DNA from: a virus
IMG/VR virus record: IMGVR_UViG_3300009156_000081
Coordinates: 1 to 24,688 of that record
DNA length: 24,688 nt
Reading direction: 5' to 3' (one strand)
A program made the position numbers and the translations under genes. Below are positions 4,445-14,220 of the stretch, piece after piece. Position 1 is the first letter of the stretch; every line of letters begins with the position of its first letter. The notes beneath the pieces are model-generated. The model made no database searches. It was not told the DNA's origin and worked only from the letters and a program-made list of their open reading frames with translations.

Positions 4445-5989
4445 ATGATCGAATACGCGAACAGTGCCTACCGAGTTCCGGGAGGCTGGACCAACAGGAT
4501 TCGAACCGCCCCCGAACGAACGTATCAAGCACACCTACGAAGCTGGCTTGTTCCAGACACCGCCGCCAACCGGCGATTCCTTAAGTCCAGTTTCCTTTCA
4601 GCTGAGTTCTCCCCCGCTGCTCACGCTGCAGTCCGCACTGAGCCCGCCATCCGCGATGGCCGTGCGTTCCCCGCCCGCCCTTTGGGCATCCTGCCCCACC
4701 AGCAGGAAGCGCTGGAACTGGCCTACGGGCTGAAATCCTACGCATTCTTCCATGAAATGGGGTCGGGCAAGTCCCGCACCCTGCTTGAACTGTGGAAGGT
4801 GTACTGGCAGGAAGGCCGGATCACTGAGGCTTGGGTGATCTGCCCCAATTCCATCATCGCCAACTGGCATGAGCAAATCAGCATCTGGGCACCTGAACTG
4901 CGTGACGTGATCAGGGTCTACGGCATTCTGAGCCTGTCCGCTGGAAGACTCCCGACCGAGCTCGTCACCCGAGCTCACGACAAGCTTGCTGTCGTCGTCG
5001 ACGAATCCCAGCGAATCAAGAACTCGCAGGCCAAACGAACCAAAGTGATGCAGGAAATCGGCAAGCATGCCGCCTTCCGCACCATCATGACAGGCACCCC
5101 AAATACCAAGGGAATCGAGGACCTCTACAGCCAATACGGCTTCCTCGACCCACAGATAGTCGGCTTCAAGTCCTTCTACTCCTTCCGCAACCGCTACTGC
5201 GTGATGGGCGGCTTCGAAAATAAACAGATCGTCGGATACCAGAACATACCGGAGCTGCTCACTGCCCTCGCCCCCTACACGCACGTCGTGAAGGACCCGG
5301 TCGAACTCCCGCCCCAAGCGCACGAGGACCGTTCGGTCCCGCTTTCGGCCGAGCAGAAGCGACTGTTGCGTGAGTTGAAGGAAATGATGATGACCGAGAT
5401 GGAAGGCGAGAGGCTTTCCGTCACGAACGCCCTGACATATTACACGCGCGGCGCGCAGATTTTGGGCGGGTTCTTCCCTTTGGCTGAGGGTCGAGTGGCA
5501 ATGCTCGACGACAACCCCAAACTGGACGAACTGATCGAAGTAGTAGAAGGCACCGATAAGAAGATAGTCATCTTCTGCCGGTTCATCCCGGAGGCCAAGC
5601 TGATCGAGCGCAAGCTGGAGAAGTACGGCATCGTCCGCCTTGGAAGCGACAGCGAAGATATACAAGGACTGGTCAACCAGTTCCAGACCGACCCCGACAC
5701 CCGGCTATTGGTATCGACCTACGGCATGGGCTCGATCGGCTTCACCTTGACCGCTGGTAAAGTACTGGTCAAGTACTCAGGCACCTTTAACTTCGAGGAC
5801 GAAATACAGAGTGAGAAACGCATCCACCGAATCGGCCAAACCGAAAACACTATGGTTATCCGATTGGTGGCGGATTGTAAGCTGGACCGCCACATTAAAG
5901 CGATCGCCCAAAACAAGCAAACGATGGCAGATTTCGTGTCCTCGTCCTTGCGCGACCCAAAGCAGCTGCTGTCACTTTTGGAGGACTGA
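4445..5989 (+). CDS. SNF2-type DEAD/DEAH-box helicase
   Basis: This is a superfamily 2 ATPase of the SNF2 type that probably moves along or remodels DNA during replication or recombination. ATG 4445 is preferred to the in-frame TTG 4427, because TTG 4427 directly abuts the leader hairpin; GAGAG lies upstream of ATG. The 514-residue product shows a Q-type entry (LPHQQEAL), Walker A HEMGSGKS (103-110), motif Ia region VICPNSIIANW, motif II VVVDESQ (DESQ 186-189), motif III TGTP (216-219), and in the second RecA domain VSTYGMGSIGFTLT and QSEKRIHRIGQ (455-465), the SNF2 signature motif VI with its arginines. It is first in the replication operon. Confidence 0.93.
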   Translation: MIEYANSAYRVPGGWTNRIRTAPERTYQAHLRSWLVPDTAANRRFLKSSFLSAEFSPAAHAAVRTEPAIRDGRAFPARPLGILPHQQEALELAYGLKSYAFFHEMGSGKSRTLLELWKVYWQEGRITEAWVICPNSIIANWHEQISIWAPELRDVIRVYGILSLSAGRLPTELVTRAHDKLAVVVDESQRIKNSQAKRTKVMQEIGKHAAFRTIMTGTPNTKGIEDLYSQYGFLDPQIVGFKSFYSFRNRYCVMGGFENKQIVGYQNIPELLTALAPYTHVVKDPVELPPQAHEDRSVPLSAEQKRLLRELKEMMMTEMEGERLSVTNALTYYTRGAQILGGFFPLAEGRVAMLDDNPKLDELIEVVEGTDKKIVIFCRFIPEAKLIERKLEKYGIVRLGSDSEDIQGLVNQFQTDPDTRLLVSTYGMGSIGFTLTAGKVLVKYSGTFNFEDEIQSEKRIHRIGQTENTMVIRLVADCKLDRHIKAIAQNKQTMADFVSSSLRDPKQLLSLLED

Positions 5990-5991
5990 AA

Positions 5992-6324
5992 ATGGGTATT
6001 GATAAAACTGTGCCGATTGAGGCCGACGCAATGATTGACCACGTCATCGACGTCGTCAAGACGGAATCCGACCGCATTCGGATCGCGACACTTGGTACTG
6101 CCCCGATCACCGTCGAGAACGATGCCGCGTTTGGCATGACGATCATGTCGGATTTCATCAACTCCCACCCGTTCGTCGTCGACGAATCTGGAGTGAAGGG
6201 AGTGCTGGATATCATGGGCATGTTTCGCCAGTACATGCTCTACCGCCTGACCGGAGTGAACGTCTGCTCCGACTGCCAAACCGAAATCGCAATTGAAGAG
6301 GCCAAAAATGTCAAAGCTCACTGA
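5992..6324 (+). CDS. Hypothetical protein of replication operon, 110 aa
   Basis: ATG 5992 follows the helicase stop by 2 bases, and GGAGG lies just upstream inside the helicase gene, so the pair is coupled. The 110-residue product is acidic in its N-terminal half (DKTVPIEADAMIDHVIDVVK) and has a single CxxC pair (VCSDC) near the C-terminus, which alone is too little for a zinc site unless it dimerises. Its end overlaps the next gene by 17 bases. No family recognised. Confidence 0.75.
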   Translation: MGIDKTVPIEADAMIDHVIDVVKTESDRIRIATLGTAPITVENDAAFGMTIMSDFINSHPFVVDESGVKGVLDIMGMFRQYMLYRLTGVNVCSDCQTEIAIEEAKNVKAH

Positions 6325-6697
6325 TCTAATCAAAGAAATGGACGGCGTCCGCGCCAAGCTGGACGGACTCGACCTCCTTTGGAAACCGCTCCAGAAGCGG
6401 TACGACGAACTTCGACTGAACGATATCCCGGCTGAAATGGCCGAGGAGGACGTTCGCTCCATCACTGGCGATTTCGGTCGCTGCACCCTCCAGTCGGACC
6501 TGCACGTCAGCGCCCCCGACAAGATGAAGCTGCACTCGTGGCTGGAGGAAACTGGCAACGGGTCGTTGATCATTCCCACGGTCAATGCCCAGACTCTCAA
6601 AGCCTTCTGCAAGGAGCAGATGACCAACGGTACCGAACTGCCTGAGTCGGTATTGAAGGTGACACCTTTCTCTCGGGCCATCATCTACAAAAGCTGA
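6308..6697 (+). CDS. Hypothetical coiled-coil protein of replication operon, 129 aa
   Basis: ATG 6308 is chosen over an in-frame TTG at 6293 because AGAGG lies just upstream. The N-terminal 45 residues form a probable coiled coil (LIKEMDGVRAKLDGLDLLWK). The C-terminal half contains HSWLEETGNG, VNAQTLKAFCKEQ and a final strand, VTPFSRAIIYKS. The pattern 'short-helix pair, LHxWL, NAQTLKAF, LPE, VTPFxRA' resembles small proteins often found beside SSB-like genes in phage replication modules. That is recognition by memory only, without a known function. Confidence 0.75.
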   Translation: MSKLTDLIKEMDGVRAKLDGLDLLWKPLQKRYDELRLNDIPAEMAEEDVRSITGDFGRCTLQSDLHVSAPDKMKLHSWLEETGNGSLIIPTVNAQTLKAFCKEQMTNGTELPESVLKVTPFSRAIIYKS

Positions 6698-6708
6698 GGA
6701 TACGAACA

Positions 6709-7452
6709 ATGAACGCGAAGAAAGAAGCTGTGAAGCAGGACCTTCAGACGAAGGTAGCTGGTACGTCGATCACCGATCAGCGGCCCGAATGGCTGAGTGC
6801 GGATTCCGGGCGTGGTTCCGAAGACGTTACTATCGATGATATGATCCTTCCCCGGGTCGAGGTACTGCAGGCGCTCAGCCCGCAGTTGAAGAAGACCGAC
6901 CCGCAATACATCCCGGGTTCGGAGCAGGGCATCATCTTCAACACGGTGTCCGGCGAGCTCTACGGACCCAGCATCACGATCATCCCGGTGGTCTTCCGCA
7001 GGGAGTTCATCGTGTGGCAGGACCGCAAGCTTGGCGGCGGTTTCAGGGGTGCTTTCAACACGGCCGAAGAAGCCGAGCAGGAGCGCCAGTCGCTGGAAAA
7101 CCCGGACCAGCATGAAGTGACTGAAACCCACGTCAATTTCGTCCTGTTGGTCCACCCGGACGGCAAGATGGAAGAGGCGGTGCTCAGCTGGTCGAAGAGC
7201 AAGCGCAAGGTGTCGCGCAAGCTCAACTCCCTCGTCCAGATGATCAACAGCGACCGGTTCGCCCGGGCTTACAAGCTCACTGCGATTCCGGTCGACGGCC
7301 CAAAGGGCGAGTACTGGTCCTTCGACGTCAGCCCGATTGGCTACATCAGCAAGCCGATGTACGACAAGGCCACTTCGTCGTACGAAGCGATCCGTCGCGG
7401 CGAACGCATCGTGGCGCACGAAACGGACCCGGCTGATTCTGCCGTAGTCTGA
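6709..7452 (+). CDS. Replication-associated protein, 247 aa
   Basis: ATG 6709 has GAGG about 9 bases upstream. The product begins with a polar leader, then a beta-rich core with LPRVEVLQALSPQL, IPGSEQGIIFNTVSGELYG, ITIIPVVFRREFIVW and DRKLGGGFRGAF, a variable charged middle, and a C-terminal segment (MINSDRFARAYKLTAIPV). This pattern is common in phage proteins located near polymerases and nucleases and often left unnamed. A role in binding single-stranded DNA or assisting recombination is possible from location. A strong GC hairpin lies directly after its stop. Confidence 0.78.
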   Translation: MNAKKEAVKQDLQTKVAGTSITDQRPEWLSADSGRGSEDVTIDDMILPRVEVLQALSPQLKKTDPQYIPGSEQGIIFNTVSGELYGPSITIIPVVFRREFIVWQDRKLGGGFRGAFNTAEEAEQERQSLENPDQHEVTETHVNFVLLVHPDGKMEEAVLSWSKSKRKVSRKLNSLVQMINSDRFARAYKLTAIPVDGPKGEYWSFDVSPIGYISKPMYDKATSSYEAIRRGERIVAHETDPADSAVV

Positions 7453-7506: not shown

Positions 7507-7821
7507 ATGGCCTTTGAGATTAAGGAAAAACGGGGTTCGCTGTTTAAGAACGATAACAAAGAGCGGGAGAATCAACCCGACTTCACTGGTAACATGAAGA
7601 TCGGCGGCAAGGTTTGGCGCGTTGCGGGGTGGAACACCGAATCTAGGGGCGGGACTGAGTACATCAGCCTCAGCATCAGTGATCCGGAAGATTTTAAGCG
7701 GCGTGACGACCCGGCACCCGCGCCTAAGCCTCGACTGACGGACGAAGAGTTTGAGAAGAAGCGTCAGCAGTTCAGGGCCAACCTGAACGACGACTTCACT
7801 GATGATGACATTCCATTCTAA
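7507..7821 (+). CDS. Probable phage single-stranded DNA-binding protein with SSB-type tail
   Basis: ATG 7507 is preceded by GGAG in CTCTGGAGAAGATC. The 104-residue product has a small beta-rich domain (residues 1-62): GSLFKNDNK, PDFTGNMKIGGKVWRVAGW and TEYISLSISDP, a pattern like DUF736-type or OB-fold proteins. A Pro-rich linker (PAPAPKP) and charged helix follow, and the chain ends DDFTDDDIPF. The last six residues, DDDIPF, equal the C-terminal tip of Escherichia coli SSB, which recruits replication and repair partners. The gene sits directly before the polymerase and overlaps it by 1 base. ssDNA binding is inferred from fold pattern, tail and position. Confidence 0.78.
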   Translation: MAFEIKEKRGSLFKNDNKERENQPDFTGNMKIGGKVWRVAGWNTESRGGTEYISLSISDPEDFKRRDDPAPAPKPRLTDEEFEKKRQQFRANLNDDFTDDDIPF

Positions 7822-9614
7822 TGGAACCAATCATCGCCCTCGACACTGAAACCACCGGGCTCGGTCCAACGGACCGGGCTTTCGGCGTGAGTTGGATGCT
7901 GACTAACGCCCCGCCACGATATATTGACATTCGGCAGCAACACCCGGCCGAGTTGCTCGACCTGATCAACTCGACCCGGCACCGAATCGTCTGCCACAAT
8001 GCGTCATTCGATTACCGCATGATGCTCCGAGCGGGCATCAGGCTACCGATCGAACGACTGGATGACACCGTGATCAGGGCAACCCTGATTGACGAACATC
8101 TGATGCACTATTCTCTGGACGGCCTTGGCCAGAAGTATCTGGGCGAGGGCAAGCTGGAGGAGATATACGAAGAGTTGGCGCGCATGTTTGGCGGACGCGC
8201 CACCAAGAATGTCCAAATGCCACGCATCGCCAGCGCCCCGCCTGAAATGGTCCGGCCTTACGCGTGCCGGGATGCGAAGCTCTGCCACAACCTCTGGCAG
8301 TGGCAGGAGCGGGAGATTGAGAGGCAGGGCATCCAAAAGATCGTTGAATTCGAACGGTCACTGATGCCGACAATCATTCGCAACGAAGTGATGGGCATTC
8401 GGGTCGACACCGAAGCGGCTAACAAGGCCGTGAACGGGCTGACCGGGGAGATTAACCTCGCCACTGCCGATATTTACAATAAGGCGGGGAAGAAGTTCAA
8501 TATCGACTCTCCAAAGCAGGTGCGAGAGGTCTTCAACCCGCACAAGGGTATGGACGGCGTTTGGCGTAATGCGCGCGGGTACGTTTTTCCATCCACGCCC
8601 GGGGGAGCTCCGTCGTTCTCGGCTGAAGCTCTGCGGGAAACCGGCGACCCACTGGCCGCCGCGATACTTGCCGCCCGTTCCTTGGTAAAGACCCGGGATA
8701 CGTTCCTCAAGGGGCATATCCTTGGGCGAGAGGTAGGGGGAAGAGTCTATCCGAGCATCCACCAAACCAAAGGAGACAACGGAGGAACTGGTACCGGACG
8801 ATTCAGCTACACCGAACCGGCGATGCAGCAGATTCCGTCCCGCAATAAGCGGGTCGCGGCAATCGTCAAGCCCATCTTCCTACCGGACGAGGGGCAGGTT
8901 TGGGTCGACGCGGATATGCACTCCTTCGAGGTCCGGGTCTTCGCCCATCTGGTGAACAACGCCCGCATCGTTGCGGCGTATCAGGCAAATCCCAGGCTCG
9001 ACTTCCATCAGCACGTGGCGGAATTGACCGGGCTACCACGTGCCGCCGAGTACAGCGGGCAGGCTAACGCCAAGCAACTGAACCTGAGCATGATCTTTAA
9101 CAGCGGCCGGGGTGCAATTGCCGAGAAGATGGGAATGCCGTGGTCGTGGGATTCATTTAGCAAGGGTGGCTCGGAGATACGTTACAAAAAAGCCGGAACG
9201 GCAGCGTGCGATGTGATTGATCGCTATCACCTTGCCATGCCGGGTGTGAAGGACTTGGCGGATAGAGCGTCAAAGATCGCTAGTCAGTACGGATTCGTCG
9301 AGACCCAGTTTGGCCGACGACTCCGGTTCCCTAAGGGGGAAAAGCTGTACAAAGCATCTGGCTTGACCATTCAGGCGACAGCGGCAGATATCAATAAAAT
9401 GAACTGGCTGCTGATTGAGGAGGCCATGGGTGGCGAGGGAAGGCTAGTGCTGAACACGCACGACAGCTACGGCATGTCAATGCCGGAGCACTGGCTTCCT
9501 GTCTGGGAACGTGTCAGGCAGGCCGTGGAAGGTGGATTTTCTTGGTTCAGAGTGCCGATCGTGCTTGACTTGTCGGGCTCTGGGCCAAACTGGTGGGAGT
9601 CACTGAAAAAATGA
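7821..9614 (+). CDS. dpoZ: Family A DNA polymerase with 3'-5' exonuclease, DpoZ-like
   Basis: This replicative polymerase is expected to insert 2-aminoadenine opposite T. The start ATG 7821 overlaps the previous stop (TAATG). Exonuclease motifs: D8-x-E10 in ALDTETTG, HNASFDYR (N60, D64), YACRD (Y147-D151). Polymerase motifs: TGTGRFSYTEPAMQQIP (323-339), motif A DMHSFEVR (D365, E370, R372; family usual DYSQIELR), O-helix AKQLNLSMIFN (K418; family usual AKxxNFGxxYG), motif C HDSY (D548; family usual HDE). The catalytic aspartates are kept, but the Phe, Tyr and Glu of the usual pocket are replaced. At 597 residues it lacks a 5' nuclease domain. Its stop overlaps the PrimPol start. The DpoZ name rests on purZ, mazZ and datZ following it. 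Confidence 0.9.
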   Translation: MEPIIALDTETTGLGPTDRAFGVSWMLTNAPPRYIDIRQQHPAELLDLINSTRHRIVCHNASFDYRMMLRAGIRLPIERLDDTVIRATLIDEHLMHYSLDGLGQKYLGEGKLEEIYEELARMFGGRATKNVQMPRIASAPPEMVRPYACRDAKLCHNLWQWQEREIERQGIQKIVEFERSLMPTIIRNEVMGIRVDTEAANKAVNGLTGEINLATADIYNKAGKKFNIDSPKQVREVFNPHKGMDGVWRNARGYVFPSTPGGAPSFSAEALRETGDPLAAAILAARSLVKTRDTFLKGHILGREVGGRVYPSIHQTKGDNGGTGTGRFSYTEPAMQQIPSRNKRVAAIVKPIFLPDEGQVWVDADMHSFEVRVFAHLVNNARIVAAYQANPRLDFHQHVAELTGLPRAAEYSGQANAKQLNLSMIFNSGRGAIAEKMGMPWSWDSFSKGGSEIRYKKAGTAACDVIDRYHLAMPGVKDLADRASKIASQYGFVETQFGRRLRFPKGEKLYKASGLTIQATAADINKMNWLLIEEAMGGEGRLVLNTHDSYGMSMPEHWLPVWERVRQAVEGGFSWFRVPIVLDLSGSGPNWWESLKK

Positions 9615-11893
9615 TTAACATCGACCTAGAAACTATACGCAAGCTGGATGCTATGCCCCGCAATCAGCGGGTACTGGAAGCAGCCAGATATTACGTGTCT
9701 ATGGGCCAACGCGTAATTCCGCAGATCGGCAAGGCCCCGCAAGTAAAGGAAGCAGACGCGTCCTCCAACTTGGCCACCATCTACGAGTGGTTCGGTCCCG
9801 GGGGACAGTACGAAGGAAAGAACGTAGGGTTGGTCCTTGAAGGGTGCCGGGTATTGGACCTCGACCGGCACGACGGAAAGGACGGGGTCAAATGGCTGGG
9901 GGTGGACGTCAACCAATTGGCATGCCCGCGCGAGGTAACGCCTCGCAACGGGTACCACATCATCATTGCAGACACCGACCTGAAGGGTCGAGGCGACAAG
10001 GGTGTCGATATTCGGACCCGGTTTACGACCTACCCATCGGTGGTTGATGGGATTCCGTACAGGTGGGAAGTCGGGGGCGCTCCCGGTCGTTTGGGAGGGA
10101 GCGCTATCCTTAAGCTGGGGGGTCGCCAAAAGAACACGCCGACCGAGGCATTTTCATCCAAGTTCGACCCGCTGGCCCCGGCGTCATACATCAATTTCCA
10201 TCTGGAACACATCGACCCGGATGCTGATTATGACACGTGGCTGAAAGTGGGTATGGCGATCCACAGTAATGACAGCGGGTATGACTCGCAGAGGGTTTGG
10301 GAAGAGTGGAGCCGGGGAGGGAGCAAGTTCAAGGAAGGGGAATGCGAGGCTAAGTGGGGGACATTTAGCGTCGATCGAGAGAAATCCGTCACTATCCGAT
10401 GGCTGATTACCGAAGCCAAGAAGAATGGGTGTCCGGCGCATGATCACGATAGCATTTATTACCAGAACCCCGGCTCCACTGTCCGAGACCTCAACGAGAA
10501 ATACGGATTGTATAACGCCAAAGGCAAGCCGTACATCGTAAGTGTGAACCATAAGGGTGAGGCATGTTTCTCCACGCCGACTGACTTGGAACACATCCTA
10601 GCGAATAAACCGGTAGTCATCAACGGCAAGGCCGTCAGCGCGGCAAAAGTATGGATGACAAGTCATGAACGAAGAGAAGTACGGGAAATCGGAATGTGGA
10701 TACCGGGGAAGGAGCCCCCGGACTCGCTCAATACCTACACCGGGTTCGCCATCGACGCAGTTGATTGCAACAGCGATGAAGAGATTCGGGACTGGTTGGA
10801 TTTTTGCCTACATGATATCTGTTGCGGCAACCTCAAGTACGCAGAATATCTATGGGACATGCTCGCCAAAAAGATACAGAACCCGCTCGGCCGGATGGGC
10901 ATTTGCCTCGTCCTATTGGGCGGGGAGGGGACCGGCAAAGGGCTGCTCACCGGCACGATCAGCAACATCATCGGGCCGAACCACGCAAAGTCGATCAGTA
11001 GCAGAGATTCTCTGATCGGAGCGTACTCCGGCGACATTATTTCCAACGCAATCTTTGTCGAGGCACACGAAGCATCGTGGGCTGGCAACCATACCGAGGG
11101 CAGCCGGTTGAAGGCCCTGATCACCGAGCCCCGGCTCGACTGGAACGGCAAGTTTAAGCCGTACTGGGAGCAGGACAACAACATCTTCGTCACGCTTACC
11201 ACTAACGACGACTGGGCGGCTCCTGCTGGCATCGACAGCCGCCGCTTCTTCGTGCTTCGCACAGCGGACACGCGCAAGTATGAAACGTCGCATTGGCAAA
11301 AGCTGGTGTCTTTGATCAGCGTCGACAGGTACACCAAGAAGATCAACAATCCGGAATATCTGGGGAAGATCAGGCACTGGCTGGAGAACCGGAAGATCAC
11401 TAATGACTTGTCCCGGGCCATGGACACCGAGTGGGTCATCAAACAACGCAAGGAAACGGCAATCGACAGCCGCGAGGACATGCTACTTGGGTGGGTCCGC
11501 GCCACATTTGGCGAGGAAAATGCATATGGATTTGCGCGCTCTGGTGGGGAAATGATCGCCAAAGTGAAAGTAGGAGACGACGAACGACGGTATGTTAGGA
11601 CAGGGAAGATATCGCAGGATTACCGGGACTACGTTAACAAGCGCGCCAAGAACAGACGTTCCACGTATGACGATGGAACTCTCAACGATAAAATGGCTCT
11701 GCTCGGATTTGAACGAAAGATGGTGCGAAGGCACCGCATATTTGAAGGAGGAAAACCGCTAGCTGATACTTACAGCGACACCAAGACCAGTGTAATGATA
11801 GTGCCCCCGCCCGATGTAATCGAGGCGAACATAACTAAGAATTTCTCACTATTTGCGGAGACATGTGATGACAGCGATGACAGTGATAGTTGA
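9611..11893 (+). CDS. PrimPol-helicase: AEP primase-polymerase, PriCT-2 and SF3-like helicase
   Basis: This fusion protein should prime DNA synthesis and unwind the fork. ATG 9611 overlaps the polymerase stop as ATGA; the in-frame start at 9593 is rejected. It has 760 residues. The N-terminal bifunctional primase-polymerase domain shows V-LDLD (D83, D85) and TPRNGYHII (H116), with GVDIR (131-135). A PriCT-2-like region spans about 200-270 (DPDADYDTWLKVGMAIH, WEEWSRGGSKF). The helicase domain follows, of DUF5906/D5-like type: Walker A GGEGTGKG (437-444), IFVEAHEA (481-488), a TTNDD sensor and the arginine region GIDSRRFFVL. The C-terminus is a short Asp/Ser tail, CDDSDDSDS, coded where purZ begins in another frame. 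Confidence 0.92.
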   Translation: MINIDLETIRKLDAMPRNQRVLEAARYYVSMGQRVIPQIGKAPQVKEADASSNLATIYEWFGPGGQYEGKNVGLVLEGCRVLDLDRHDGKDGVKWLGVDVNQLACPREVTPRNGYHIIIADTDLKGRGDKGVDIRTRFTTYPSVVDGIPYRWEVGGAPGRLGGSAILKLGGRQKNTPTEAFSSKFDPLAPASYINFHLEHIDPDADYDTWLKVGMAIHSNDSGYDSQRVWEEWSRGGSKFKEGECEAKWGTFSVDREKSVTIRWLITEAKKNGCPAHDHDSIYYQNPGSTVRDLNEKYGLYNAKGKPYIVSVNHKGEACFSTPTDLEHILANKPVVINGKAVSAAKVWMTSHERREVREIGMWIPGKEPPDSLNTYTGFAIDAVDCNSDEEIRDWLDFCLHDICCGNLKYAEYLWDMLAKKIQNPLGRMGICLVLLGGEGTGKGLLTGTISNIIGPNHAKSISSRDSLIGAYSGDIISNAIFVEAHEASWAGNHTEGSRLKALITEPRLDWNGKFKPYWEQDNNIFVTLTTNDDWAAPAGIDSRRFFVLRTADTRKYETSHWQKLVSLISVDRYTKKINNPEYLGKIRHWLENRKITNDLSRAMDTEWVIKQRKETAIDSREDMLLGWVRATFGEENAYGFARSGGEMIAKVKVGDDERRYVRTGKISQDYRDYVNKRAKNRRSTYDDGTLNDKMALLGFERKMVRRHRIFEGGKPLADTYSDTKTSVMIVPPPDVIEANITKNFSLFAETCDDSDDSDS

Positions 11894-12962
11894 CCTACAA
11901 TTCGGCAGCACCGGTAAGGGGTTGATTGCCGGGTACCTGAGCCAAAAGAAAGAGTTCGACACAGTGGTATCCGCCAACATGCCAAATGCAGGGCATACAT
12001 TCGTGGATGCGCGCGGCAAGAAGTGGATTAACAAGGTCCTTCCGTCCGGCCTGTACAGCCCCTCGCTCACCTACGTGGGCATCGGACCCGGGGCGGTGTT
12101 CGACCCGGCCCAGCTGGTCAAGGAAATCGACGAAATGCGGGAGCGGATCAACACCGACCCGCAAATCCTTATCCACGAATGCGCCGCCATCCTCCTGCCC
12201 GAACATAAGGAGGCGGAGCAAAAGCTGAACCCGATCGCCAGCACCATGCAAGGGTCCGCCGAAGCCTGCATCCAAAAGATGCGGCGAGAGGGAATCGGGT
12301 CCAATGTGGCTGGCCTGAGCCCAGAATACCTCGGTACTTTCTTCACCAACCGGGGCGAGCCGCTGAGCAGGTTCCTCGTAACCAGCCAACAGTGGTTCGA
12401 TCTGATGCTGCTGTCGGACAACATCTTGTGCGAAGGATCGCAGGGCTACTCGCTCGGCATCAATGCCGGGTTCTACCCATACGCCACCAGCCGGGATTGC
12501 ACGGTCAACCGGCTCCTGTCGGATTGCGCCTTGCCGCCCACCAGCCTGAAAACGGTGGTTGGTACGGCCCGGGTTCATCCGATTCGGGTCGGCAATACCA
12601 ACGGTGGCAATAGTGGCCCCCACTATCGTGATCAAGTCGAAACGAGCTGGTCGGAAATTGGCGTAGAGCCCGAAATGACCACCGTGACCGGCCGGGTCCG
12701 GCGCGTGTTCACCTTCTCGGAAATGCAGGTGCGGGAAGCGATGACCATGAACGCCGTCGACCGGGTCTTCCTCAACTTCTGCAACTATGAACCGGCAGAA
12801 GCGATCAGAGTGGCCAAGATCATTAACGCTTTCGGCAGCGAGGTTTACGCCCGGCGGGGATTGGGGGCGTGGGCCGGTGACTACCATCCCCAAGTCGTGC
12901 GCTACCTTGGGTTTGGCCCCAAGGCTGAGCACATCATGGAAGTCGACGGATACACTGGGTAG
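11868..12962 (+). CDS. purZ: PurZ, dGMP-aspartate ligase (adenylosuccinate synthetase homologue)
   Basis: PurZ joins dGMP and aspartate, the committed step to 2-aminoadenine deoxynucleotides. ATG 11868 is chosen because GGAG lies 8 bases upstream; ATG 11877 is also possible. The product (364 residues) has the PurA fold motifs: FGSTGKGLIAGYL (residues 12-24) at the P-loop, MPNAGHTFV with catalytic His43, a LPSG segment, EGSQGYSLGINAGFYPYATS, and TARVHPIRVGN. In PurA the P-loop reads GDEGKGK with a catalytic Asp; here it is GSTGKG, so Asp is replaced by Ser, a change reported for PurZ enzymes that act on dGMP. It overlaps the PrimPol gene by 26 bases and is followed by mazZ. Confidence 0.95.
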   Translation: MTAMTVIVDLQFGSTGKGLIAGYLSQKKEFDTVVSANMPNAGHTFVDARGKKWINKVLPSGLYSPSLTYVGIGPGAVFDPAQLVKEIDEMRERINTDPQILIHECAAILLPEHKEAEQKLNPIASTMQGSAEACIQKMRREGIGSNVAGLSPEYLGTFFTNRGEPLSRFLVTSQQWFDLMLLSDNILCEGSQGYSLGINAGFYPYATSRDCTVNRLLSDCALPPTSLKTVVGTARVHPIRVGNTNGGNSGPHYRDQVETSWSEIGVEPEMTTVTGRVRRVFTFSEMQVREAMTMNAVDRVFLNFCNYEPAEAIRVAKIINAFGSEVYARRGLGAWAGDYHPQVVRYLGFGPKAEHIMEVDGYTG

Positions 12963-12971
12963 GAGAAGACG

Positions 12972-13286
12972 ATGATCACACTCAAGGAACTGCAGGAAGA
13001 CGTCATTACGTGGGCGGACGGAATCTCTCCGGAACGCTCGCCAAAAGACGCCGTCGTCAAGATGGTGGCTGAGACGTCGGAACTGCTGGATGCTGTCTTG
13101 AACAAGGACAGAATGGCTGTTGAGGGGGAATTGGGCGACTGCCTGATTCTCCTCCTCGACATTGCCAAGATGTACGACGTTGATTTGGTCAAGGCCGGGG
13201 ATATGAAGATGACCATCAACTGGAACCGCAAGTGGGAGAGCGTCAACGGGGTCATCCGCAGGAAGAGGAACGGAGGCCAGCTGTGA
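12972..13286 (+). CDS. mazZ: MazZ, MazG-like dNTP pyrophosphohydrolase
   Basis: The protein is a 104-residue single all-helical MazG-like domain. It shows the metal-binding pattern ExxE (E34-x-x-E37 in AETSELLDAV) and, 15 residues later, ExxD (E53-x-x-D56 in EGELGDCLIL). In Z phages MazZ converts dGTP to dGMP and pyrophosphate, feeding PurZ and trimming the competing pool. ATG 12972 follows the purZ stop by 9 bases with AGGAGA at 12961. Its stop overlaps the datZ start as GTGA, and GGAGG for datZ lies in its 3' end. The general MazG role in nucleotide housekeeping cannot be excluded by sequence alone, but the context argues for MazZ. Confidence 0.9.
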   Translation: MITLKELQEDVITWADGISPERSPKDAVVKMVAETSELLDAVLNKDRMAVEGELGDCLILLLDIAKMYDVDLVKAGDMKMTINWNRKWESVNGVIRRKRNGGQL

Positions 13287-13762
13287 ACATACATGAAAAA
13301 CTCAGGCTGCAAGAGGTAAAGAGGTTCCCAATCTGCCACACTAACAAGGACCAAAGTGTGGCGGAGCACTCGTTTAACGTGGTCCTGATCGCCATGGATT
13401 TGGTCGCAGAGGAAGAGGACACCCGGCTCAAGTTTGAGGTACTGTTGTACGCCCTCGAACATGATATGGATGAAGTGTTCACCGGAGACATACCCTCCGG
13501 GTTCAAGCGCAAGCTGCGCACCGAATGTCCCGCCGTGATCAAGCTGCTCGATGGCGAGAAATTCGTCAACCCAGAGGTAAAGGCCGTCGTGAAGCTGGCC
13601 GACTGGCTGGAGGCCATCTACCACCTGCGCCATTTTGGGGGCAGCAGGCTGGCTGAAGGCATCATCCCCGAAATGCTACAAAACTTCTTTCATGCCGCCA
13701 ATACCAGCGGCGTGAGAGACACCGTCCGACTGAGAGCCTTGGAACTGGAGAAGGTACTATGA
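13283..13762 (+). CDS. datZ: DatZ, HD-domain dATP triphosphohydrolase
   Basis: The 159-residue product is an HD-domain phosphohydrolase of the YfbR-like group. GTG 13283 is used, with GGAGG at 13272-13276; the longer frame from 13232 lies inside mazZ. Metal ligands: H29 in VAEHSFNV, H60-D61 in LEHDMDEV, and D107 in KLADWLEAIY; GDIPSG (68-73) is the substrate loop typical of this group. DatZ removes phosphates from dATP in Z phages so that adenine does not enter DNA. Short length and the operon with purZ and mazZ support DatZ over a general 5'-nucleotidase. The next gene starts in its stop (ATGA). Confidence 0.9.
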   Translation: MNIHEKLRLQEVKRFPICHTNKDQSVAEHSFNVVLIAMDLVAEEEDTRLKFEVLLYALEHDMDEVFTGDIPSGFKRKLRTECPAVIKLLDGEKFVNPEVKAVVKLADWLEAIYHLRHFGGSRLAEGIIPEMLQNFFHAANTSGVRDTVRLRALELEKVL

Positions 13763-14220
13763 GCGCAAGCGTGAAATTTCCGAAGGACCCGATCACTGTG
13801 CCCCTGCCAATCGTCATCCGCGAAGAGCGGGACTTGCGCAAGTACATCACCCGGGCCTTGGAGGGGCTGGCGCACGTGGCCAATATTGAGGCGCACGAAA
13901 CGGCGGCCGGGATACCTGATATGTCCATCTTCATGGACGGCCGCGACATTTGGGTCGAGCTCAAGATTCTGAGTGATCGGAAGCCCCCCAAAATGCGCCC
14001 CACCCAAAAGAGGTGGCACCGGGACCGTTGGGCATACGGCGGATTGTCATGGGTAATCGTCTATGACGTTGACGACCATGTTCTGCTGGTTATCCCGGGG
14101 CACACGGCGGCCACTCTAGGCCCGCGAGTCGTGTCGTGGCGAGAGAGCGGAGTGGTCCGGAATACCGACGAAATCGTCGACGTCATCAGAAGCATGGTCA
14201 AGAGGACTCGAAATGCGTAG
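13759..14220 (+). CDS. VRR-NUC-like PD-(D/E)xK nuclease, 153 aa
   Basis: ATG 13759 overlaps the datZ stop as ATGA. Residues 40-100 hold the nuclease signature: E43/E46 region, GIPDMSIF (Asp54), 12 residues, then VELK (Glu67, Lys69), and a downstream QKRWHRDR (Gln83) followed by a SWVIVY strand. GxPD-x12-ExK with a downstream Gln matches the VRR-NUC family, known from phage nucleases and from FAN1-type structure-specific enzymes. It may resolve branched replication intermediates. Position immediately behind datZ puts it in the Z operon, and it presumably acts on Z-containing DNA. Function is inferred from motif only. Confidence 0.82.
   Translation: MSASVKFPKDPITVPLPIVIREERDLRKYITRALEGLAHVANIEAHETAAGIPDMSIFMDGRDIWVELKILSDRKPPKMRPTQKRWHRDRWAYGGLSWVIVYDVDDHVLLVIPGHTAATLGPRVVSWRESGVVRNTDEIVDVIRSMVKRTRNA

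Follow-up and report, generated by a model that had tools for sequence, protein, structure and literature searches.

Motif 6 glycine covaries with purZ among the phiVC8-type (DpoZ-2) DNA polymerases of phages

The base Z is A plus a 2-amino group, which lies in the minor groove and provides a third hydrogen bond to T. In the Z-phage pathway, PurZ makes the dZMP precursor, MazZ supplies dGMP and DatZ destroys dATP. On the polymerase side, Czernecki et al. measured the dZTP preference of phiVC8 DpoZ and solved its structure in 2021, listing four departures in this enzyme: L455, F459, G548 and S583 (PMC8599892). Single departures from this list are also found in polymerases without Z genes (L455 in phiJL001, G548 in pVa5 and S583, as HDS, in T5), and the authors found selectivity not to be explained by any single mutation, proposing a base-pair-sensitive backtracking (PMC8599892). 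An exonuclease-dead phiVC8 DpoZ retains the Z preference, and an R161A/M165A mutant has raised selectivity (PMC8599892). A preference for dZTP is also reported for the DpoZ of phage SH-Ab 15497, and Wayne-like DpoZ is likewise Z-selective and keeps Asn at the position of Gly548 (PMC8599892). The 2021 structural study left the location of the Z preference unsettled; a 2026 paper has since split DpoZ into two independently acquired groups (PMC12884076). In Klenow, a shape-sensing role at the 3′-terminal pair has been suggested for N845, the equivalent of Gly548, and the N845A mutant loses selectivity (PMC3347538).

The window examined here is the whole of a 24,688-nt stretch, positions 1 to 24,688 of IMG/VR virus record IMGVR_UViG_3300009156_000081, and all of its features described below lie on the plus strand. 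The open reading frame at 7821-9614 runs from ATG to stop and encodes a family A DNA polymerase of 597 aa with a 3′–5′ exonuclease domain. Its top match in the PDB, by both sequence and fold, is phiVC8 DpoZ (7PBK; E 2.6e-202, ~53% identity), followed by Klenow at 3e-35, and its AlphaFold model (mean pLDDT 91.6) aligns to 7PBK with a fold Z of 40.1 over 574 residues at 53% identity. In our tree the window polymerase is nested in a clade with the phiVC8 and SH-Ab 15497 enzymes, and Pol I and the PolA of other phages lie outside that clade. Together with motifs that recur family-wide, these results firmly support the common ancestry with DpoZ that an earlier note, written from the DNA sequence alone, had offered as one account of this polymerase’s unusual pocket. 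The window polymerase is thus a further DpoZ-2 member, with pocket departures that were already published in 2021 for phiVC8 DpoZ.

Each motif described in the earlier note is present as it was read. Motif A is DMHSFEVR (D365 to R372; 8913..8936), in which Asp365 corresponds to Klenow D705 and Glu370 to E710. The O-helix (motif B) is AKQLNLSMIFN (residues 417-427; 9069..9101) and contains Leu422 (9084..9086; Klenow Phe762, phiVC8 L455) and Phe426 (9096..9098; Klenow Tyr766, phiVC8 F459). Motif C, placed by sequence and alignment, is HDSY (His547-Asp548-Ser549-Tyr550; 9459..9470). The catalytic residues are intact in both the polymerase (D365, D548) and exonuclease (D8, E10, D64) sites; within the latter, the aligned exo1 element Asp8-Thr-Glu10 (7842..7850; phiVC8 D26/E28), taken with Asp64 (phiVC8 D85), has residues that are invariant in alignment set A5. 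What the earlier note missed is a fourth pocket departure, Gly514 in motif 6 (9360..9362; Klenow Asn845, phiVC8 G548), and all three insertions of the phiVC8-type DpoZ, at residues 318-322 (palm strands 7-8), 409-415 (helix O) and 440-457 (fingers tip). The equivalent of Klenow R754 is retained as R407, before the 7-residue insertion in helix O. In the alignment, the characteristic phiVC8 residues L455, F459 and G548 are thus matched by Leu422, Phe426 and Gly514, and the motif departures in the window are not chance, since identical residues are found again in other phiVC8-type DpoZ.

The resemblance to phiVC8 DpoZ, itself a DpoZ-2 enzyme, covers 99% of the length and takes in the O-helix Leu and Phe, the motif 6 Gly, HDS, the three insertions and the exonuclease residues; phiVC8 also has purZ and datZ downstream in the same order. 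The two differ as follows: at Leu420 and Ser423 of the window enzyme, that of phiVC8 has Met and Gly, and the window enzyme has a shorter N-terminus, is without the phiVC8 loop 117-127, and carries His for Ala in motif A and Lys129 for Arg161. Closer in sequence is the polymerase of Stenotrophomonas phage BUCT555 (62% identity), which matches the window enzyme exactly in motifs A, 6 and C and in the O-helix core and lies in the same gene order (helicase-gp33-gp34-ssb-pol-primase-purZ-DUF550-datZ-VRR), although the genome is a different one and GenBank annotates the protein only as DNA polymerase I; the literature yielded no biochemistry for it. The DpoZ of Acinetobacter phage SH-Ab 15497, of the same subfamily, shares the O-helix Leu and Phe, the motif 6 Gly, the insertions and an adjoining purZ, but it is only 43-44% identical and has DLDQHEFR as motif A and HDEY as motif C. 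Wayne-like DpoZ (DpoZ-1) has Phe at the Tyr766 position and HDS, yet it has no meaningful homology to the window enzyme beyond family A, keeps Phe762 and Asn845 and has no helix-O insertion (PMC8599892, PMC12884076). It is paired with PurZ0 and DutZ, and the corresponding loop of the Wayne PurZ reads GSEAKG where the window PurZ has GSTGKG; with Gly514, the helix-O insertion and GSTGKG, the window locus does not belong to that group. Nor is the enzyme a classical Pol I of A-DNA: it shares with Klenow and Taq Pol I the fold, the catalytic Asp residues, TGR and the motif B Lys and Arg, but it is changed at Tyr766, Phe762, Asn845 and HDE.

In the window, dpoZ is encoded together with purZ, a mazZ-like gene and datZ. 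Just upstream of it lies a gene for an ssDNA-binding-like protein (7507..7821; phrog_7364 / phrog_18154), and downstream come genes for a primase-helicase-like protein (PriCT_2, DUF5906; 9593..11893, first Met at 9611), a 2-aminoadenylosuccinate synthetase-like PurZ (11868..12962; phrog_1211 E 1.9e-78, PF00709 E 4.4e-38), a MazZ-like protein of DUF550/MazG type (12972..13286), DatZ, an HD-domain dATP triphosphohydrolase (13283..13762; phrog_7076 E 3.6e-27, PF12917), and a VRR-nuclease-like protein that closes the cassette (13759..14220). The datZ frame is open from 13232, with a probable GTG start near 13283. PurZ is 56% identical to that of BUCT555 and 44% to that of phiVC8, and the MazZ-like protein is 51% identical to the BUCT555 DUF550 protein and 63% to its counterpart in L004. 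The downstream order is that of BUCT555 and, in outline, of phiVC8. In the phage collection that we compared, purZ is also present in 57/57 records whose polymerase shares 41% identity or more with that of the window; phiJL001, the published relative without purZ, is absent from that collection.

Eight IMG/VR scans and one genome scan gave ~190 distinct polymerases, ~150 of them DpoZ-2, from which ~140 purZ-carrying relatives could be set against four lineages without purZ. The rule for the latter was blind to residues: no match to the purZ or datZ family in the contig, and downstream sequence extending beyond the usual purZ distance, which, measured from the end of the polymerase, ranges from -18 to 2885 nt in the purZ-carrying loci with a single exception. 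The purZ-less lineages are R1 (L002, L003, L026, L027, L028 and L074, with polymerases 58-61% identical to the window’s), R2 (L089, L090/L091, L093 and L095), L087 and L108; only L090 has too little downstream sequence to pass the rule, and it encodes the same polymerase as L091. These contigs, whose completeness is uncertified, measure 23-42 kb in R1, up to 37 kb in R2, 31 kb for L108 and 19 kb for L087, the last two being partial. We excluded L036, L045, L058, L081 and L086, in which the polymerase lies within ~2.4 kb of the contig end, and L053, L110, L279 and L294, in which the gene is cut off. L169 had looked purZ-less from its locus and was rejected, as its purZ sits at the other end of the contig. 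One DpoZ phage, L146, has purZ 9.75 kb upstream of the polymerase rather than in the usual place just downstream. The genome-contig scan contributed two purZ-carrying loci, one of which is masked at motif 6. Motif 6 is masked in L213 (Desulfobulbus sp. Tol-SR contig JROS01000092.1), which has a divergent DpoZ, purZ and datZ; although filed under a bacterial genome, it is possibly a prophage or phage contig.

In the whole contigs of the four purZ-less lineages, PF00709 and the datZ family gave no match, and this includes five R1 contigs that, at 39-42 kb, are as large as the complete BUCT555 and phiVC8 genomes. These five near full-length contigs (L002, which is IMGVR_UViG_3300011440_000017, L003, L027, L028 and L074) are missing purZ, mazZ and datZ altogether, although the site is syntenic in other respects: the R1 gene order is retained, but the primase abuts the VRR nuclease where the window has its Z cassette. 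Such a site represents a natural deletion or the state before gain, in either case next to Z phages. At the corresponding site of L087 there is instead an ORF (5699-6844) for a putative nucleotide kinase-like protein with the P-loop GRSGCGKNT.

The earlier note had proposed the changes in motif A, the O-helix and motif C as candidates for Z:T selectivity, and had named as evidence against this their occurrence in close relatives without purZ. Such relatives exist, and three of the four changes fall with them: R1, at ~60% identity, keeps DMHSFEVR, Leu422 and HDSY, and Leu422 is kept in all four purZ-less lineages. The comparison with other Z-preferring enzymes points the same way for two of the three. 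phiVC8 DpoZ shares Leu, Phe and HDS, but the DLDQHEFR and HDEY of the SH-Ab 15497 enzyme mean that Z preference does not require the motif A and motif C of the window. None of the three features (motif A, Leu and HDS) is therefore a marker of Z use; judged from the alignments, they are family or lineage marks, not determinants. The remaining change, Tyr to Phe, fares better. Phe426 is invariant in the purZ-carrying DpoZ-2 polymerases; R1 has Met in its place and R2 has Tyr, although L087 and L108 both retain Phe. Wayne DpoZ likewise has Phe at the Tyr766 position, and three distant phage PolA (L309, L311 and L314; ~25% identity, no purZ in the locus) have Phe there with Asn at 845, so that the Tyr-to-Phe change is not confined to Z phages.

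We scanned every alignment column for invariance in 127 purZ-carrying polymerases and then for its state in the four purZ-less lineages. There are 37 invariant columns, and Gly514 alone departs in all four lineages: it is Gly in 127/127 purZ-carrying polymerases, Ala in R1 and in R2, and Ser in L087 and in L108, whereas the number of such columns expected under independence is ~0.0001. Phe426 is the second column, departing in two of the four. Among 2,000 random control quartets of purZ-carrying lineages, no column departed in four or even in three. Motif 6 was first inspected by eye, having been named in the 2021 paper, and the scan, the control quartets and a set of purZ-carrying polymerases fetched later guard against that choice; the later set has Gly in 12/12 sequences with a readable motif 6 and Phe in 13/13.

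When the motif columns are left out of tree building, purZ and Gly each change four times on the tree, and the two shift in the same direction in 3/3 well-supported independent pairs, which are too few for sign-test significance. AU tests reject a single clade of all purZ-carrying rows (p 2e-6) and do not reject a root on any one purZ-less lineage (p 0.18-0.79); these results support at least three separate switches without proving loss in any one of the lineages. Four lineages carry the covariation, and within it Gly514 is the best residue correlate of purZ among the columns scanned. Because pVa5 has Gly without Z genes and Wayne-like DpoZ has Asn, Gly is neither sufficient nor universal, and it can be a determinant only within DpoZ-2.

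These observations suggest a mechanism in line with the published backtracking model, in which DpoZ would extend Z:T ends efficiently while weaker A:T ends fray and return to the exonuclease. We predict that Gly514 and Phe426 jointly underlie selectivity through an effect at the 3′-terminal base pair. With the Asn845 side chain gone, extension may hinge on the strength of the terminal pair and so favor pairs with three hydrogen bonds; relatives without Z genes would put a side chain back, as Ala or Ser. Since the exonuclease-dead phiVC8 enzyme keeps its Z preference, excision is not the sole basis, and the effect would bear on extension as well. The window gene is very probably a phiVC8-type DpoZ (DpoZ-2), the replicative polymerase of a phage that replaces A with Z, with selectivity predicted to work through Gly514 and Phe426 and with motif A, Leu422 and HDS as marks of lineage. 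A more tentative proposal from sequence comparison, to which we give a probability of roughly 0.4, is that DpoZ-2 polymerases switched between Z-DNA and A-DNA replication in evolution mainly at Gly514, with Phe426 assisting, and that repeated cassette loss was followed by refilling with Ala or Ser, which restored the copying of A:T pairs.

Against such a role of the two residues stands the possibility, doubtful but to be taken seriously, that Gly514 and Phe426 track purZ by accident or through general tuning and that Z preference is distributed over the insertions, thumb and exonuclease dynamics and backtracking, as the 2021 paper favored. The failure of any single mutation to explain selectivity (PMC8599892), the raised selectivity of R161A/M165A, and the presence of Gly548 in a polymerase without Z genes and its absence from Wayne-like DpoZ all fit such a distributed basis. 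However, all three insertions are also found in the purZ-less lineages, the equivalents of R161 and M165 are the same or conservatively changed there, and one column alone switches in 4/4 lineages, which never happened in 2,000 control quartets. A Z-selective pocket formed by the whole set of DMHSFEVR, the O-helix Leu and Phe, and HDS is very improbable. The window does combine all four, as do phiVC8-like purZ-carrying phages, whose motif A has Ala instead of His; yet three of them are unchanged in purZ-less R1 at 60% identity, HDS is reported in the T5 polymerase (PMC8599892), and motif A and HDS, being absent from the dZTP-preferring SH-Ab 15497 enzyme (PMC8599892), are refuted as parts of it.

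The argument for the Gly514 switch would also lose its force if the purZ-less relatives were still Z phages, with purZ elsewhere or missed, as the covariation would then be uninformative on Z. Their contigs are not certified complete, and L087 and L108 are partial, but this is unlikely, as purZ, mazZ and datZ are all missing between a primase and a VRR nuclease that are joined directly in R1, and the searches of whole contigs, including the five of 39-42 kb, found neither PF00709 nor the datZ family. Least credible of all is that the window enzyme is an ordinary phage PolA copying A-DNA beside an incidental purZ: although relatives as close as 60% are without purZ, the window carries the purZ-mazZ-datZ cassette in full, its polymerase is 53% identical to one whose Z preference has been measured, and both purZ-linked residues are in the Z state.

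Natural relatives without the cassette thus offer ready-made comparisons for residues of Z preference, and by that comparison none of motif A, the O-helix Leu, the motif C Ser or the three insertions marks Z use by itself. One strong candidate (Gly514) and one weaker (Phe426) are left, and Gly514 is a specific experimental target; the question, which bears on the making of polymerases for Z-DNA, becomes answerable with a small number of point mutants and a single natural enzyme. Further loci show variation at other positions of the pocket or outside DpoZ-2. The purZ-carrying DpoZ of L216 (4247-6121) and L217 (7947-9821) have DIMSCDVR as motif A, in which Asp replaces the steric-gate Glu (Klenow E710). 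Ochrobactrum phage OH (L008) encodes PurZ with DatZ-like and MazG-like proteins, yet its PolA (4941-6767) is 28% identical to the window’s, falls among non-DpoZ polymerases and carries Ser where the window has Phe426 and Gly514, which counts against the proposed link; the phage also has a primase-polymerase.
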